A stretch of DNA of 64,000 bases from Alishewanella aestuarii B11 (GTDB taxonomy: Bacteria > Pseudomonadota > Gammaproteobacteria > Enterobacterales > Alteromonadaceae), in NCBI RefSeq assembly GCF_000280055.1, contig NZ_ALAB01000021.1, positions 1 through 64,000 on the forward strand, in the 5' to 3' direction. Within the stretch, counting starts at the first letter, position 1, and each line of letters starts with the position of its first letter. The translations under genes were made by a program, and so were the position numbers. A model generated the notes under the pieces. The model had not been told where the DNA came from and did no database searches. It saw nothing but the letters and a program-made list of their open reading frames with translations. Of this stretch, positions 18,737 to 38,196 are shown one piece after another.

Positions 18737-18842
18737 GTGCATCCGGCGGCTAAACACGCCGTACAACTTTCCTGGGACTCGCCGCGAATACCTCACTGGG
18801 GGTTATAAACTTCATCCTGAAGTTTACCCAGCTAAGGTCGCA
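18737..18842 (+). repeat. deleted A unit fused to the 3' end of a B unit
   Basis: The block begins like the other A units (GCATCCGGCGGCTAAACACG) and holds the small hairpin AAACTTC-ATC-CTGAAGTTT. It then switches directly into the last 20 or so bases of a B unit (ACCCAGCTAAGG, 18826-18837). Everything between is missing, so it is a decayed A-B repeat, probably formed by recombination or slippage. It is the only clearly truncated copy in the array. Confidence 0.7.
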
Positions 18843-18876
18843 GCAATGGGCTCGACGCTTCAGAATCGTGATATAA

Positions 18877-19076
18877 GCATCCGGTGGCAAGCACACCGTA
18901 CAACTTTGACGGGACACGCTGTGAATACATCCCTTACGGTTACAAACTTCATCCTTGAAGTTTGCCCTTCGGGCCAGCGTGCCGCTGTTCAAATTTGTTC
19001 CTGACAAATTTGTGCATTTTTCATCCATGAAAAATACATTCCCTTACAAAGTGTACGGAATGCTTACCACCTCGTT
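18877..19076 (+). repeat. A unit, long form
   Basis: This is an imperfect long hairpin whose arms run CCGTACAACTTTG (18896 on) against CAAAGTGTACGG near 19047-19058. Inside are, in order, an AAACTTC/GAAGTTT hairpin, a GCCC-TTC-GGGC hairpin, a CAGCG/CGCTG hairpin, a CAAATTTGT/ACAAATTTG hairpin with a TTCCTG loop, and an ATTTTTCATCCATGAAAAAT hairpin. The same set in the same order recurs at 22729-22927. Confidence 0.8.
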
Positions 19077-19128
19077 TTATATCTGCTGTGTTCTAAGATG
19101 TTTTTCGTGACGTCTAAGAGATTCTATT

Positions 19129-19250
19129 TAAGCCCTTGGCTGCGGTAGAATTTTCGTAACAGCAGCAGGGATGCTGCGGAGGCTGAAAGGGCACAGGGAC
19201 GTGATCCTTGAAGCCGGTGGAGAAAATTACTACCCAGCTAAGGGCGTTGC
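19129..19250 (+). repeat. B unit, copy 1 (candidate structured RNA)
   Basis: The unit runs from TTAAGCCC to GCGTTGC. Predicted pairing: an outer helix CCCTTGGCTG with CAGCTAAGGG (one G-U), a second helix GGTAGAATTTTC with GAAAATTACTACC (one bulge), and two side hairpins, GCAGCA/TGCTGC and GGCT-GA-AAGG/CCTT-GA-AGCC. The fourth helix has a symmetrical GA/GA internal loop, which would form tandem sheared pairs in RNA. It has no open reading frame of note. Confidence 0.8.
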
Positions 19251-19282: not shown

Positions 19283-19411
19283 GCATCCGGCGGCTAAACA
19301 CGCCGTACAACTTTCCTGGGGCACGCCGTAAACCCATCCCTGGGGGCTCCCCTTTCGCATCCATGCGAAAGACGTCCCCAGAAAAGTGTACTCTGCGTTT
19401 ACCGCCTCGTT
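19283..19411 (+). repeat. A unit, short form with TTTCGCATCCATGCGAAA
   Basis: Same outer arms as the other A units, but the interior holds only a GGGG/CCCC pairing and one inner hairpin TTTCGCATCCATGCGAAA (19353-19370). The 3' flank carries another small hairpin GTGAGTC-GTCAT-GACTCAC (19420-19438), which is also found after the A units at 27.3 and 27.6 kb. Confidence 0.8.
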
Positions 19412-19447
19412 CACTCTTTTGTGAGTCGTCATGACTCACCGATATTC

Positions 19448-22683: not shown

Positions 22684-22728
22684 TTGTTGTCCTCTGTTTT
22701 TAACGTATATGTCAGATTCAGGTTCTGA

Positions 22729-22927
22729 GCATCCGATGACAAGCACACCGTACAACTTTGCCGGGACACGCTGTGAATACATCCCTTACGGTTACAAACT
22801 TCATCCTGAAGTTTGCCCTTCGGGCCAGCGTGCCGCTGTTCAAATTTGTTCCTGACAAATTTGTGCATTTTTCATCCCTGAAAAATACATTCCCTTGCAA
22901 AGTGCACGGAATGCTTATCATCTCGTT
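22729..22927 (+). repeat. A unit, long form, between scoA and mvaB
   Basis: Same order of inner hairpins as the copy at 18877: AAACTTC/GAAGTTT, GCCC/GGGC, CAGCG/CGCTG, CAAATTTGT/ACAAATTTG, ATTTTTCA/TGAAAAAT. Outer arms are CCGTACAACTTTGCCGGG and its imperfect complement CCCTTGCAAAGTGCACGG. It is about 200 bp long. Confidence 0.8.
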
Positions 22928-22943
22928 CGCAACCGCTATGTAA

Positions 22944-23068
22944 GTTAAGCCCTTAGCTGCGGTAGAATTTTCGTAACAGCAGCATGGATGCTGCGGAGGC
23001 TGAAAGGGCACAGGGATGTGATCCTTGAAGCCGGTGGAGAAAATTACTACCCAGCTAAGGGCGTTGCA
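22944..23068 (+). repeat. B unit, copy 3, between scoA and mvaB
   Basis: This copy has the fully Watson-Crick form of the outer helix, CCCTTAGCTG with CAGCTAAGGG. The inner helices match the other copies. Just after it, at 23086-23102, the 3' end of the unit is echoed once more (CAGCTAAGGGCATTACA), the trace of a lost second copy. Confidence 0.8.
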
Positions 23069-23137
23069 CCGATCTATAATCTGCTCAGCTAAGGGCATTA
23101 CACCGATCTTTAAGCTGCCATCAGGCAATGCACTAAA

Positions 23138-26112: not shown

Positions 26113-26904
26113 TTAATTCGTCAACCAGCCTGGCTTGCGCTTTTCTAAAAAGGCCGTTAAGCCTTCCTGGCCTTCTGCCGAAACCCGAATTGAGGCAATA
26201 GCTGCGGTGGTATCACCAATCAGTTCGGCATTAATCGGGCGCTGGTAGATATGCTGGATCAGCTGTTTGGCACTAGTCACTGCTGCAGGACTATTTTGCA
26301 GCAGGCTGTTGATCAGCGTTTCAGATTGAGATTCCAGTTCACCGGCAGCGACAACCTGATGCAATAAGCCCAGAGTTAAGGCGCTGTCTGAACTAAAGCG
26401 CTCGGCAGTTAAAAAGTAACGCCGGCACTGGCGCTCACCCAGCGCCCGCATGACATAGGGGCTGATTACCGCCGGGATCAGGCCGATTTTTACTTCGCTC
26501 AGGCAAAAACTGGCGCCTTGTTCGGCCAATGCCATATCACAGCATGCGACTAAACCCACAGCGCCACCAAAGGCGGCGCCCTGTACCAGCGCGATGGTAG
26601 GTTTAGGAAATTTATCCAGCTTATGCATCAGTGCGGCCAGTTCGTTGGCATCGTCCAGATTTTGCTGGTAGTTTTTTTGCGCCATTGAGCGCATCCAGTT
26701 GAGATCAGCACCGGCCGAGAAGTTTTTACCGCGGGCGCTTAGCGTTAATACTTTGACCTTATCGTCGGCAGCCAACTGGTCCAGTACCCTGATCAATTCT
26801 GCGATCATCTGGTCGTCGAAGGCGTTGTGGACTTCCGGGCGATTTAGGATCAGGTTAGCGACACCGCGGGAGTCAATGCTGATTTCGGTATAATGTTGGC
26901 TCAT
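26113..26904 (-). CDS. liuC: methylglutaconyl-CoA hydratase (enoyl-CoA hydratase family)
   Basis: This 263-residue crotonase-fold protein has the oxyanion-hole segments SARGKNFSAGADLNWM (about residues 56-71) and QGAAFGGAVGLVACCD (about 104-119). Its position between liuB and liuD marks it as the hydratase forming 3-hydroxy-3-methylglutaryl-CoA. Upstream the transcript would have to cross a 1-kb A/B repeat array before reaching it from liuB, so polarity or a separate promoter is possible. Confidence 0.9.
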   Translation of the reverse strand: MSQHYTEISIDSRGVANLILNRPEVHNAFDDQMIAELIRVLDQLAADDKVKVLTLSARGKNFSAGADLNWMRSMAQKNYQQNLDDANELAALMHKLDKFPKPTIALVQGAAFGGAVGLVACCDMALAEQGASFCLSEVKIGLIPAVISPYVMRALGERQCRRYFLTAERFSSDSALTLGLLHQVVAAGELESQSETLINSLLQNSPAAVTSAKQLIQHIYQRPINAELIGDTTAAIASIRVSAEGQEGLTAFLEKRKPGWLTN

Positions 26905-26966
26905 AATGATGTCGCTCCGTTATTCTTGCTGTGTTCTGAACTGGAATCTGCGGCCCCCGGTTCAGT

Positions 26967-27095
26967 GCATCCGATGACGAGCACACCGTACAACTTTGCC
27001 GGGACACGCTGTGAATACGTCCCTGTACGCTTGCATTTTTCATCCCTGAAAAATACAGTCCCTTGCAAAGTGCACGGAATGCTCATCATCTCGTT
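26967..27095 (+). repeat. A unit, medium form, between liuC and liuB
   Basis: The outer arms are as in the copy at 22729, but only one inner hairpin is kept, ATTTTTCATCCCTGAAAAAT. The four other modules of the long form are absent. It is the first of three A units in this array. Confidence 0.8.
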
Positions 27096-27110
27096 CGCAA
27101 TCGCTTGTTA

Positions 27111-27235
27111 GTTAAGCCCTTGGCTGCGGTAGAATTTTCGTAACAGCAGCATGGATGCTGCGGAGGCTGAAAGGGCACAGGGATGTGATCCTTGAAGCCG
27201 GTGGAGAAAATTACTACCCAGTTAAGGGCGTTGCA
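27111..27235 (+). repeat. B unit, copy 4
   Basis: The outer helix here reads CCCTTGGCTG with CAGTTAAGGG. Compared with the copy at 22944 both strands have changed, giving two adjacent G-U wobbles where the other copy has A-U and G-C. Pairing is therefore kept in a fashion that suits an RNA helix. The hairpin core CATGGATG is at 27150-27157. Confidence 0.8.
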
Positions 27236-27266
27236 CCGATCTAAAATCTGTAAGTCAAAATCCGGT

Positions 27267-27396
27267 GCATCCGGCGGCTAAACACGCCGTACAACTTTGT
27301 CGGGGCACGCTGTAAATACCTCCCTGTACGCTCTTGTTTGGCATCCATGCCAAACAGGTCCCCGAGCAAAGTGTACTCTGCGTTTACCGCCTCGTT
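27267..27396 (+). repeat. A unit, short form with GTTTGGCATCCATGCCAAAC
   Basis: Outer arms contain GTACAACTTTGTCGGGG and CCCCGAGCAAAGTGTAC. The single inner hairpin is GTTTGGCATCCATGCCAAAC (27336-27355), a stem different from those of the other A units around the same CATCCATG core. It belongs to a 321-bp direct repeat together with the next copy. Confidence 0.8.
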
Positions 27397-27431
27397 TACT
27401 TTTTGCGAGTCGTCATGACTCACTGATATTC

Positions 27432-27556
27432 GTTAAGCCCTTGGCTGCGGTAGAATTTTCGTAACAGCAGCATGGATGCTGCGGAGGCTGAAAGGGCACA
27501 GGGACGTGATCCTTGAAGCCGGTGGAGAAAATTACTACCCAGTTAAGGGCGTTGCA
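27432..27556 (+). repeat. B unit, copy 5
   Basis: Same G-U variant of the outer helix as copy 4 (CCCTTGGCTG with CAGTTAAGGG). The sequence is almost identical to copies 4 and 6. Hairpin core CATGGATG is at 27471-27478. Confidence 0.8.
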
Positions 27557-27587
27557 CCGATCTAAAATCTGTAAATCAAAATCCGGT

Positions 27588-27717
27588 TCATCCGGCGGCT
27601 AAACACGCCGTACAACTTTGTCGGGGCTCGCTGTGGATACGTCCCTGTACGCTCTTGTTTGGCATCCATGCCAAACAGGTCCCCGAGCAAAGTGTACTCT
27701 GCGTTTACCGCCTCGTT
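27588..27717 (+). repeat. A unit, short form, second tandem copy
   Basis: Near-identical to the unit at 27267, offset by 321 bases, with the same inner GTTTGGCATCCATGCCAAAC hairpin (27657-27676). The few differences (for example GGCTCGCTGTGGATAC against GGCACGCTGTAAATAC) show that the duplication is recent but not brand new. Confidence 0.8.
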
Positions 27718-27752
27718 TACTTTCTGCGAGTCGTCATGACTCACTGATATTC

Positions 27753-27877
27753 GTTAAGCCCTTGGCTGCGGTAGAATTTTCGTAACAGCAGCATGGATGC
27801 TGCGGAGGCTGAAAGGGCACAGGGACGTGATCCTTGAAGCCGGTGGAGAAAATTACTACCCAGTTAAGGGCGTTGCA
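27753..27877 (+). repeat. B unit, copy 6
   Basis: Same form as copies 4 and 5. It ends 45 bases before the stop codon of liuB, on the opposite strand to the operon. Confidence 0.8.
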
Positions 27878-27922
27878 CCGATCTAAACTCTGCTATTTTC
27901 AAACACTCACAAGGTGTTTTAT

Positions 27923-29530
27923 TTACATCCTGAACACGCCAAAGCGGCTCTCTTCAATCGGTGCATTTAACGCTGCAGCAAGCGCCAGTCCTACCGTCAT
28001 GCGGGTTTGCGCCGGATCGATAATGCCATCATCCCACAGCCGCGCACTGGCATAATAAGGATGCCCCTGCTGCTCATACTGCTCAATAATCGGCTTTTTC
28101 AGCGCAGCTTCGGCTTCCGTTGATAAGGTTTCACCCTTACGTGCCAAACCGTCTTTCGTTACCTGCGCCATGACACCGGCAGCTTGCTCGCCGCCCATTA
28201 CTGAAATGCGCGCGTTGGGCCACATCCACATCATGGTTGGATCATAAGCGCGGCCGCACATGCCGTAGTTACCGGCGCCGTAGCTGCCGCCAATCAGTAC
28301 GGTAAATTTCGGTACTTTGGCACAGCTTACTGCCATCACCATCTTGGCGCCGTGCTTGGCAATACCCTCGGCTTCATACTTTTTGCCGACCATAAAGCCG
28401 GTGATATTTTGCAGGAACAACAGCGGGATCTTGCGCTGGGCACAGAGCTCGATAAAGTGCGCGCCTTTTTGCGCTGATTCTGAGAATAAAATCCCATTAT
28501 TGGCGACAATGCCTACCGGATAGCCGAAGATGCGCGCAAAGCCACAGACCAGGGTCGCGCCATAGTATTGCTTAAACTCATCAAATTCTGAGCCATCGAC
28601 AATCCGCGCTATCACTTCTTTCACATCAAACGGCTTACGCAAGTCGGTACCGACAATGCCGTACAGCTCTTTGGCATCGTACAGCGGTTCTGCTACCGGT
28701 TTCACGTCCAGCTGCGCTGGCGCAGGGCGGTTTAAGCGTGATACCGCATTGCGTGCCAGTTGCAGCGCGTGTTCGTCGTTTAGTGCGTAATGATCGGCGA
28801 CGCCGGAAATTTTACAGTGCACATCGGCACCGCCCAGCTCTTCGGCGGAGACCTCTTCGCCCGTCGCTGCTTTAACCAGCGGTGGACCGGCCAGAAAGAT
28901 GGTGCCTTGTTCTTTAACGATAATGCTTTCATCAGCCATTGCCGGCACGTAGGCGCCGCCGGCGGTACAAAGGCCCATTACCACTGCAATTTGCGGGATG
29001 CCTTTGGCAGACATATTCGCCTGATTAAAGAAGATGCGGCCAAAGTGCAGCTTGTCCGGGAAGACTTCATCCTGCCGTGGCAGGTTGGCACCACCGGAGT
29101 CAACCAGATAAATACAGGGCAGGTGACAACGCTCCGCAATTTCCTGGGCCCGCAGATGTTTTTTTACCGTCAGCGGATAATAGGTACCGCCTTTGACGGT
29201 GGCGTCATTGGCGACAATCATGCACTCGACGCCGCTGACGCGGCCGATGCCCGCGACGACACCGGCGGCAGGGACATAGTCGTCGTAGCATTCCCAGCCG
29301 GCAAACTGGCCGATTTCCAGAAAAGGTGAGCCTGGGTCCAGCAGCTTTTGCACGCGGTCGCGGGCAAAGAGTTTGCCGCGCGCCACATGGCGGGCGATCA
29401 GGCTTTCGCCACCGCCCAGTTTAATCTGCTGCACCTTGGTTTGCAGATCATCGACCACCGCCTGCATCGCTGCGGCGTTTTTCTGAAACTCGTCGCTACG
29501 CGGATTAATTTTACTGGTGATTTTTGCCAT
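27923..29530 (-). CDS. liuB: methylcrotonyl-CoA carboxylase carboxyltransferase (beta) subunit
   Basis: This 535-residue subunit transfers carboxylate from biotin on LiuD to 3-methylcrotonyl-CoA. It shows the acyl-CoA carboxyltransferase pattern, with [11 protein letters not shown] in the first half and [18 protein letters not shown] in the second, both glycine-rich oxyanion loops. The ATG lies one base after the liuA stop; an upstream extension of nine codons inside liuA is not needed. It is the last liu gene before the large repeat array. Confidence 0.95.
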
Positions 29531-29531
29531 C

Positions 29532-30701
29532 TTAGTTCGACTCAGTAAACAGCTCACGACCGATCAGCATACGGCGGATTTCTGAGGTGCCGGCACCGAT
29601 CTCGTATAACTTGGCATCACGCAGTAAGCGGCCTGTCGGGTATTCATTAATATAGCCATTACCGCCTAATAACTGGATGGCATCCAGTGCCATTTGCGTC
29701 GCCAATTCAGCCGCATACAGAATCACGCCAGCGGCATCTTTACGGGTGGTTTCGCCACGGTCACAGGCTTTAGCAACCATATAAACATAAGAGCGGGCGG
29801 CGTTCATTTTGGTGTACATATCGGCAACCTTGCCTTGTACCAGCTGGAATTCACCAATCGCCTGGCCAAACTGCTTCCGATCATGGATATAAGGCACGAC
29901 CACATCCATACAGGCTTGCATTATGCCCAGTGGGCCTGCTGACAGTACCACGCGCTCGTAGTCCAGACCGCTCATCAGTACCTGCACGCCGCGGCCAACC
30001 TGACCCAGTACGTTTTCTTCCGGTACTTCGCAATCTTCAAATACCAGTTCACAGGTGTTGGAGCCACGCATCCCCAGTTTGTCGAGCTTTTGCGCCTGCG
30101 AGAAACCTTTAAAGCCGCGCTCAACGATAAAGGCGGTAATGCCTTTACTACCGGCGTTAACATCGGTTTTGGCGTAAATCACATAGGTATGGGCATCCGG
30201 ACCATTGGTGATCCACATCTTGTTGCCATTCAGAATATATTTATCGCCTTTTTTGTCAGCGCGCAGTTTCATGCTGACGACATCAGAGCCGGCATTCGGC
30301 TCACTCATTGCCAGAGCGCCAATGTGCTCACCAGAGCAGAGTTTCGGTAGATATTTTTGTTTTTGTGCTTCGGTGCCGTTACGGAAGATTTGGTTTACGC
30401 ACAGGTTGGAGTGCGCGCCGTAGGACAGCGCTACAGAGGCTGAGGCGCGGCTGATTTCTTCCATCGCAATCACGTGCTCTAAATAGCCCAGGCCTGAACC
30501 GCCGTATTGTTCGTCAACCGTGATGCCTAACAGGCCTAAATCGCCGAATTTACGCCATAAGTCATTGGGGAACGCATTATCATGGTCAATTTGTGCTGCA
30601 CGCGGGGCAATTTCTTCGCGGGCAAAGCTATTTACCTGCTCGCGGATCATATCTACGGTTTCGCCCAGGTCGAAATTCAGGCCTTTATATGTACTAATCA
30701 T
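29532..30701 (-). CDS. liuA: isovaleryl-CoA dehydrogenase
   Basis: This 389-residue acyl-CoA dehydrogenase oxidises isovaleryl-CoA to 3-methylcrotonyl-CoA and passes electrons to ETF. FAD and substrate motifs are seen ([10 protein letters not shown] near residue 132, [12 protein letters not shown] near 165). The glutamate in [14 protein letters not shown] (about residue 250) is the position used as catalytic base in isovaleryl-CoA dehydrogenases, separating it from short-chain enzymes that use a C-terminal glutamate. It is first after liuR. Confidence 0.95.
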
Positions 30702-37812: not shown

Positions 37813-38196
37813 GACTGCGTACATTTTTTCTGAGACACGCCGTGAACCGTCCCTGGGGCTCGATTGTGAATATCATCCATGATATTCACCGGAGGCCAGC
37901 AGGGCTGTCCAAATTCGTTCCCGACGAATTTGTCCGGCCATCCATGGCCTCCAACGGTCTCAGAAAAAAGTACATCCGCCATCCCGCTTACTACGGATGT
38001 ATCCTTAGATTTTCATCTGAGACAGATGCGGATGTACTTTTTTGACGGAACGTCTTTCGCATAGATGCGAAAGAGACAAATTCGTCGGGAACGAATTTGA
38101 ACAGCGGCACGCTGACCCTAAGGGCAAACTTCAGGATGAAGTTTGTAACCCTACATGGATGTATTCACGGCGTGTCCGGCAAAAAATGTACGCAGT
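37813..38196. repeat. large composite palindrome built of A-type hairpin modules
   Basis: Outer arms ACTGCGTACATTTTTT...ACACGCCGTGAA (37814-37846) and their complement (38164-38196) match at most positions. Inside lie two opposed sub-elements: the left pairs TTTTTTCTGAGAC with GTCTCAGAAAAAA, the right pairs GTACTTTTTTGACGG with CCGGCAAAAAATGTAC. Small hairpins include GTGAATATCATCCATGATATTCAC (37866-37889), GGCCATCCATGGCC, AAATTCGT/ACGAATTT twice, TTTCGCATAGATGCGAAA and AAACTTCAGGATGAAGTTT. These are the same modules as in the A units at 19-27 kb, partly inverted. It fills the mmsB-to-SDR gap. Confidence 0.85.

Follow-up and report, generated by a model that had tools for sequence, protein, structure and literature searches.

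What is the 125-nt element that recurs between positions 27111 and 27877 of the Alishewanella aestuarii B11 window (the whole stretch of DNA that was analyzed, 64,000 nt)? The first-pass annotation had described this element, unit B, as six near-complete copies with a shared fold and had recognized no known RNA family in it. Sequence comparison bore out the positions of the six near-identical copies, all on the plus strand, which are 81 to 100% alike over 170 nt. With the 22944 copy as the reference, the other copies are 98 to 100% identical over the matched 123 to 125 nt. They are given here with their scores for R1, a model built from 74 homologues, and for the Rfam family TwoAYGGAY (RF01731).

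19128 to 19250, plus strand: unit B copy 1; R1 119.6 bits; RF01731 31.3 bits
19448 to 19572, plus strand: unit B copy 2; R1 119.6 bits; RF01731 31.9 bits
22944 to 23068, plus strand: unit B copy 3; R1 121.6 bits; exact ACARGGATGT at 23010 to 23019
27111 to 27235, plus strand: unit B copy 4; R1 121.9 bits; RF01731 32.7 bits; exact ACARGGATGT at 27177 to 27186
27432 to 27556, plus strand: unit B copy 5; R1 120.7 bits; RF01731 30.2 bits
27753 to 27877, plus strand: unit B copy 6; R1 120.7 bits; RF01731 30.2 bits

The copies form three arrays between longer ORFs, at 18.7 to 19.65 kb, 22.7 to 23.1 kb, and 26.9 to 27.9 kb, the last with a repeat period of 321 nt. An ORF of 136 aa (22718 to 23128, minus strand) overlaps the 22944 copy. 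Over the whole genome, DNA comparison gave 15 matches to unit B, three of them clearly partial, and R1 gave 14.

The minimum-energy fold of unit B consists of an outer helix, an inner helix with one bulged A, and two side hairpins, the second of which carries the tandem GA as a GA/GA internal loop; this is the fold that had been drawn from inspection of the sequence. Two copies were folded as RNA and had z scores of −6.5 and −7.4; the minus strand of one of them had −4.8. An alignment of 74 homologues (A1, cleared of duplicates, locus-end rows, four BLAST rows that were truncated or odd, and a truncated copy in L053) revealed covariation beyond that of shuffled and slid controls. Standard pairs filled 95.6% of pair cells in the 74 homologues versus 84.7% in shuffles, cells changed on both sides numbered 272 versus 75 (a value reached by 0 of 500 shuffles), 17 of 32 pairs had changed on both sides versus 13.5 (1 of 500 shuffles reached 17), and the covariation score was 0.370 versus 0.160 when shuffled and at most 0.122 when slid, all for sequences that are related to one another and for a structure derived from one among them. 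In one of the five covariation measures, that of further pair types, the shuffles were not beaten (78 of 500 reached the observed value), and pair 17-101 was broken in 53 of the 74 rows.

The outer helix makes the strongest case. Its wobble changes between copies, which had been taken as helix preserving, are present in the sequence but are uninformative on pairing within unit B: when 3′ strands were re-dealt among the copies (16 rows), pairing was 97.7% either way. Since shuffling among unit B copies leaves pairing unchanged, support for this helix comes from other species. In the 58 rows outside unit B, the outer-helix letters differ widely while complementarity is kept, and 76.7% of cells are paired versus 47.7% in shuffles (maximum of 53.6% in 500 trials). 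G-U cells outnumber A-C cells by 178 to 6 over the 74 rows, which indicates that the plus strand is the folded strand. Covariation, the G-U/A-C asymmetry, and outer-helix pairing across species all support the earlier reading of unit B as a structured RNA. A folded single-stranded DNA intermediate, offered at the same time, is not favored, because G-U pairs are kept on one strand only and A-N-GGA loops suit an RNA-binding protein. That unit B is a real folded RNA element is well supported by these comparisons.

At the gathering score, Rfam gave no match in the whole 64-kb window. In permissive Rfam scans of two window stretches, with the 22944 copy outside both, TwoAYGGAY matched five unit B copies over the full model at 30.2 to 32.7 bits (E, 0.005 to 0.018), below the gathering cutoff of 43 bits; a microRNA-family match (E, 0.44) was at chance level and was given no weight. 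Reciprocally, R1 matched five of seven above-cutoff TwoAYGGAY hits (L055 twice, L080, L056, and L058; E, 9e-6 to 0.002) and missed two (L057 and L081). Of 60 relatives, 25 had an RF01731 match at E ≤ 0.01 and 4 had one above the cutoff, and none of 14 control genomes had a match, in a search with stricter filters under which A. aestuarii B11 itself was missed. The full-model match, the reciprocal matches, and the shared tandem GA show that the failure to recognize a known family was a mistake, and they give good support to the view that unit B is related to TwoAYGGAY, though divergent. We call it a relative and do not file it as a member of RF01731 because its scores lie below the 43-bit cutoff.

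Like TwoAYGGAY (RF01731, clan CL00106), unit B has two GGA-loop hairpins, tandem GA in one stem, and a poorly conserved closing stem. Unlike TwoAYGGAY, its loop 2 is mostly AGGGAY and rarely a literal AYGGAY, and it occurs in near-identical arrays that alternate with another element, unit A. TwoAYGGAY was reported in 2010 with no function assigned to it (PMC2864571). Gardner and Eldai noted that one of its stems has tandem GAs and that the CsrA motif has two strong matches in it, and they proposed CsrA binding from this motif analysis (PMC4333381).

The loops of unit B are A-N-GGA-U (loop 1) and ACA-N-GGA-Y (loop 2). Their letters are the most conserved positions of the element, and the stems vary freely yet stay complementary. 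The A is fixed in both loops, and GGA is kept in 73 (loop 1) and 74 (loop 2) of 74 rows. GGA-to-GGA spacing is 28 nt in 73 rows, the remaining row being without the first GGA. N is U in 49, G in 21, and A in 4 first loops, and it is G in 62, A in 7, and U in 5 second loops; a pyrimidine thus stands at N in 49 of 74 first loops and in 5 of 74 second loops. ACANGGA is found in all 74 second loops and the exact ACARGGAUGU in 52. PMC4347634 gives the CsrA consensus as RUACARGGAUGU, in which ACA and GGA are invariant, and states that binding is best with GGA in a hairpin loop. Where this consensus is fixed, the loop positions of unit B are fixed as well; at N they vary. The 64-kb window has ACARGGATGT 2 times versus 0.16 expected and ACANGGAYGT 9 times versus 0.53 expected, and all nine lie within A or B elements. 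By their letters and spacing, the two loops together resemble a dual site for a CsrA dimer.

A csrA match was present in 59 of 60 relatives, including A. aestuarii B11 (G000:C5:268013-268168), and numbered one in each of the 31 genus genomes. CsrA-titrating RNAs (CsrB and RsmY/RsmZ) resemble unit B in displaying the GGA of an ACA-N-GGA consensus in hairpin loops, and RsmY belongs to the same Rfam clan as TwoAYGGAY. Unlike CsrB and RsmY/RsmZ, the elements described here are dispersed repeats with two to four sites and without a visible promoter or terminator. A single CsrB-like match, below the family cutoff in every case, was found in each of 30 of the 31 genus genomes; that of A. aestuarii B11 lies at G000:C28:51207-51521 (29.1 bits, below the cutoff).

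Matches to unit A are given here with scores for its model, R2.

18769 to 18890, minus strand: unit A match; R2 38.1 bits
18906 to 19034, minus strand: unit A, long form; R2 130.5 bits; a row of alignment A3 and hence in the model training
19313 to 19442, minus strand: unit A, short form; R2 29.6 bits; R1 22.7 bits at 19297 to 19400
22758 to 22885, minus strand: unit A, long form; R2 128.6 bits; a row of A3
26996 to 27110, minus strand: unit A, short form; R2 41.8 bits; ACAGGGACGT at 27017 to 27026
27297 to 27402, minus strand: unit A, short form; R2 28.9 bits; R1 14.1 bits
27618 to 27723, minus strand: unit A, short form; R2 24.5 bits; R1 15.8 bits
37827 to 37954, minus strand: unit A match, half of a separate inverted A-A pair; R2 96 bits
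38055 to 38183, plus strand: unit A, other half of the inverted A-A pair; R2 125.2 bits; ACATGGATGT at 38153 to 38162

The inverted pair at 37827 to 38183 (minus and then plus) has no unit B nearby. R1, the unit B model, matched short unit A elements in the window at 22.7 bits (E, 2e-4), 15.8 bits (E, 0.03), and 14.1 bits (E, 0.09). Unit A elements have two to four GGA loops, and the long form has four GGA hairpins. For the long form, 86 of 146 BLAST rows were dropped from alignment A3 because they failed to cover the middle or extended past the locus end, and identical rows were merged to leave 41. Across these 41 homologues, all chosen by BLAST, the four loop stretches contain GGA in 39, 41, 40, and 40 cases, counts that exclude a set picked by a pattern requiring GGA. 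The letter before GGA varies in the loops tabulated, and the G-U to A-C ratio is 29:4. Read on the minus strand, unit A is an RNA of the same kind as unit B. R2 matches numbered at least 14 to 60 per genome in 25 of 25 genus genomes searched, with at least 22 in A. aestuarii B11; these are lower bounds (83 candidates were scored per genome) from a model partly trained on the same genomes. Of 16 genomes from elsewhere in the order, 7 had R2 matches.

No Rfam family matched long unit A in the eight loci scanned (E ≤ 0.5). In four of the same eight loci, a short unit-A-like element matched Ysr224 (RF02770) below its cutoff of 70, at 35.2 bits in L224 (1256 to 1355) and also in L222, L216, and L231. 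Like short unit A, Ysr224 is multicopy, and it is transcribed in Yersinia ruckeri according to the description in PMC12112432. It differs from unit A in that the strand annotated in Rfam is complementary to the one with the GGA loops. Ysr224 looks like the complement strand of short unit A, and its annotated strand is perhaps worth a second look. Matches to TD-2 (E, 3.4) and RsmY (E, 3) were rejected as chance level, though both fall on the GGA strand of unit A.

The three window arrays contain six unit B copies, all on the plus strand, and seven unit A matches, all on the minus strand. Among 104 unit-B-type elements in 80 named loci, 32 (in 10 site groups) have a unit A match within 300 nt, and the nearest unit A is on the opposite strand in 32 of 32, with a gap of 27 to 36 nt in 17. 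When all A-B pairs were counted, strands were opposite in 37 of 37 pairs within 100 nt and in 40 of 41 within 300 nt, the lone same-strand pair (L148) being 293 nt apart. Because unit A lies on the strand opposite unit B, CsrA-type hairpins would be displayed whichever way an array is transcribed.

The gap that holds the 27-kb array (26905 to 27922) lies between genes at 26113 to 26904 and 27923 to 29557, which we take to be liuC and liuB of leucine breakdown. It was compared across the genus in 30 loci, one genome (G019) having no such locus. Unit B was present in 3 of the 30 and a unit A match in 25, in one of which (L260) the neighboring gene lies beyond the locus. The five gaps with no unit A match measure 15 to 26 nt in four cases and 112 nt in one. 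Several gap loci have two adjacent unit A matches on opposite strands. L273 and L278 carry short versus long unit A at the same intercistronic gap, as would follow from the gain or loss of a module of two hairpins. An enoyl-CoA-hydratase-like gene match with one internal TAA was seen at G010:C5:119453-120235 and G023:C3:215591-216373.

If each element were a stand-alone small RNA gene of the CsrB/RsmZ type, it should have its own promoter and terminator. The loop motif, which is common to CsrA-titrating RNAs, would fit such a gene, as would the rating of TwoAYGGAY by Weinberg et al. as probably RNA and not cis-regulatory (PMC2864571). However, neither a sigma-70 promoter nor a terminator pattern was found in 26900 to 27925 by consensus scans, which miss other promoter types; TATAAT-like sites upstream of 102 elements numbered 29 versus 45 in shuffles, and T runs followed only 7 of 103 elements. 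We consider independent genes unlikely. With no promoter or terminator of its own seen, unit B is most likely carried inside the transcripts of neighboring genes.

The genomic setting bears on a simpler role, that of a plain 3′-end-stabilizing hairpin or transcription terminator. Divergent-gene gaps are depleted of elements, as such a role would have it: they account for 1 of 28 site groups (by majority) versus 45 of 193 background gaps (binomial P = 0.006; the background includes element-bearing gaps, genes were called with a simple ORF caller, and 18 of 104 elements have no flanking gene in the locus). The same caller placed 7 of 104 elements over an ORF of 200 aa or more. On the other side, no T run follows the stem, and the loop letters are the most conserved positions, the reverse of what a plain hairpin should show. 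We regard this explanation as very improbable. Site groups showed no sense-strand bias, with 11 antisense and 7 sense in tandem gaps and 9 groups convergent (11 of 104 elements had no flanking gene in the locus in this analysis).

A DNA search of 147 genomes from 89 genera found unit B homologues in 32 genomes and 2 genera, A. aestuarii B11 included. R1 matched 53 of 144 genomes in 20 of 89 genera and 31 of 31 genomes of the genus, several of which had contributed sequences to it. Among named genomes, a pattern scan yielded 92 stretches, and the 80 listed come from Rheinheimera, Alishewanella, Arsukibacterium, Alkalimonas, and Gammaproteobacteria metagenome assemblies. Multicopy, intergenic elements in inverted pairs, with near-identical copies in one genome, would also be expected of mobile repeats, REP/BIME-like or other, in which the hairpins are there for the repeat itself, in DNA binding or transposition, with no role for CsrA. 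A Y1 transposase domain is present in 27 of 31 genus genomes, including one in A. aestuarii B11, where nothing ties it to the A/B repeats. REP elements are short single palindromes, whereas unit B is about 125 nt long and branched and has CsrA-type loops. Further arguments against a mobile repeat are that the loop letters are fixed while the stems are free yet complementary, that the wobbles are strand asymmetric, and that plasmid and phage collections had no unit B match, by which plasmid or phage carriage was also rejected. We think the mobile-repeat explanation quite unlikely, a little more so than independent small RNA genes.

An insertion mechanism linked to tRNA genes was likewise rejected: the four A. 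aestuarii B11 arrays scanned outside the window (L004, L005, L042, and L043; the C2 copy was left out) all adjoin tRNA genes, but tRNA genes were found in only 3 of the 58 named loci scanned (of 80). In L005 (570 to 1623, on C5), csrA is followed about 0.8 kb downstream by a unit B copy, the interval containing tRNA-Ser, tRNA-Arg, and tRNA-Arg, and one copy in G023 is about 1.2 kb from csrA. A general link of unit B to csrA was dismissed, as no further such case occurs among the matches listed.

The reading that we prefer, with a probability of about two in three (0.66), is that these loci are bidirectional arrays in which intergenic transcripts carry hairpins with CsrA sites and that unit B is a divergent relative of TwoAYGGAY. 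The long closing stem, free in sequence but complementary, would hold out the two hairpins, and their loops, 28 nt apart, would form a paired site for a CsrA dimer. Because the strands alternate, a transcript entering from either side would expose CsrA-type hairpins. Binding would then draw CsrA away from other mRNAs, have a local effect on the carrier transcript, or do both. Counted against the CsrA part of this reading are the CsrB-like match already present in 30 of 31 genus genomes, which makes a need for further decoys less obvious, the lack of sense-strand bias of the sites, and a loop 2 that is seldom AYGGAY (5/74). A broader proposal, to which we give slightly less than even odds, is that two families of dispersed CsrA-site RNAs (14 unit B and at least 22 unit A elements here and up to 60 unit A elements in relatives) make up a genome-wide, repeat-borne bidirectional sink or a set of portable operators besides CsrB.

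TwoAYGGAY and the CsrA-titrating RNAs are known kinds of RNA. Amplified strand-alternating arrays with a four-hairpin partner were not found described in the open-licence literature searched, nor were CsrA-linked repeats or Rheinheimera intergenic repeats. CsrA binding is the one functional proposal found for TwoAYGGAY, and the elements offer a sharp test of it: the genus can be grown in culture, each genome has one csrA match (31/31), and the elements number in the dozens. If CsrA does bind them, how much of it is available would depend on how many repeats there are and on transcriptional read-through at numerous loci. The elements may serve as landing pads for CsrA or as built-in decoys. Were this true, dispersed repeats could tune a global regulator, which would be a reason to revisit other multicopy elements such as Ysr224.
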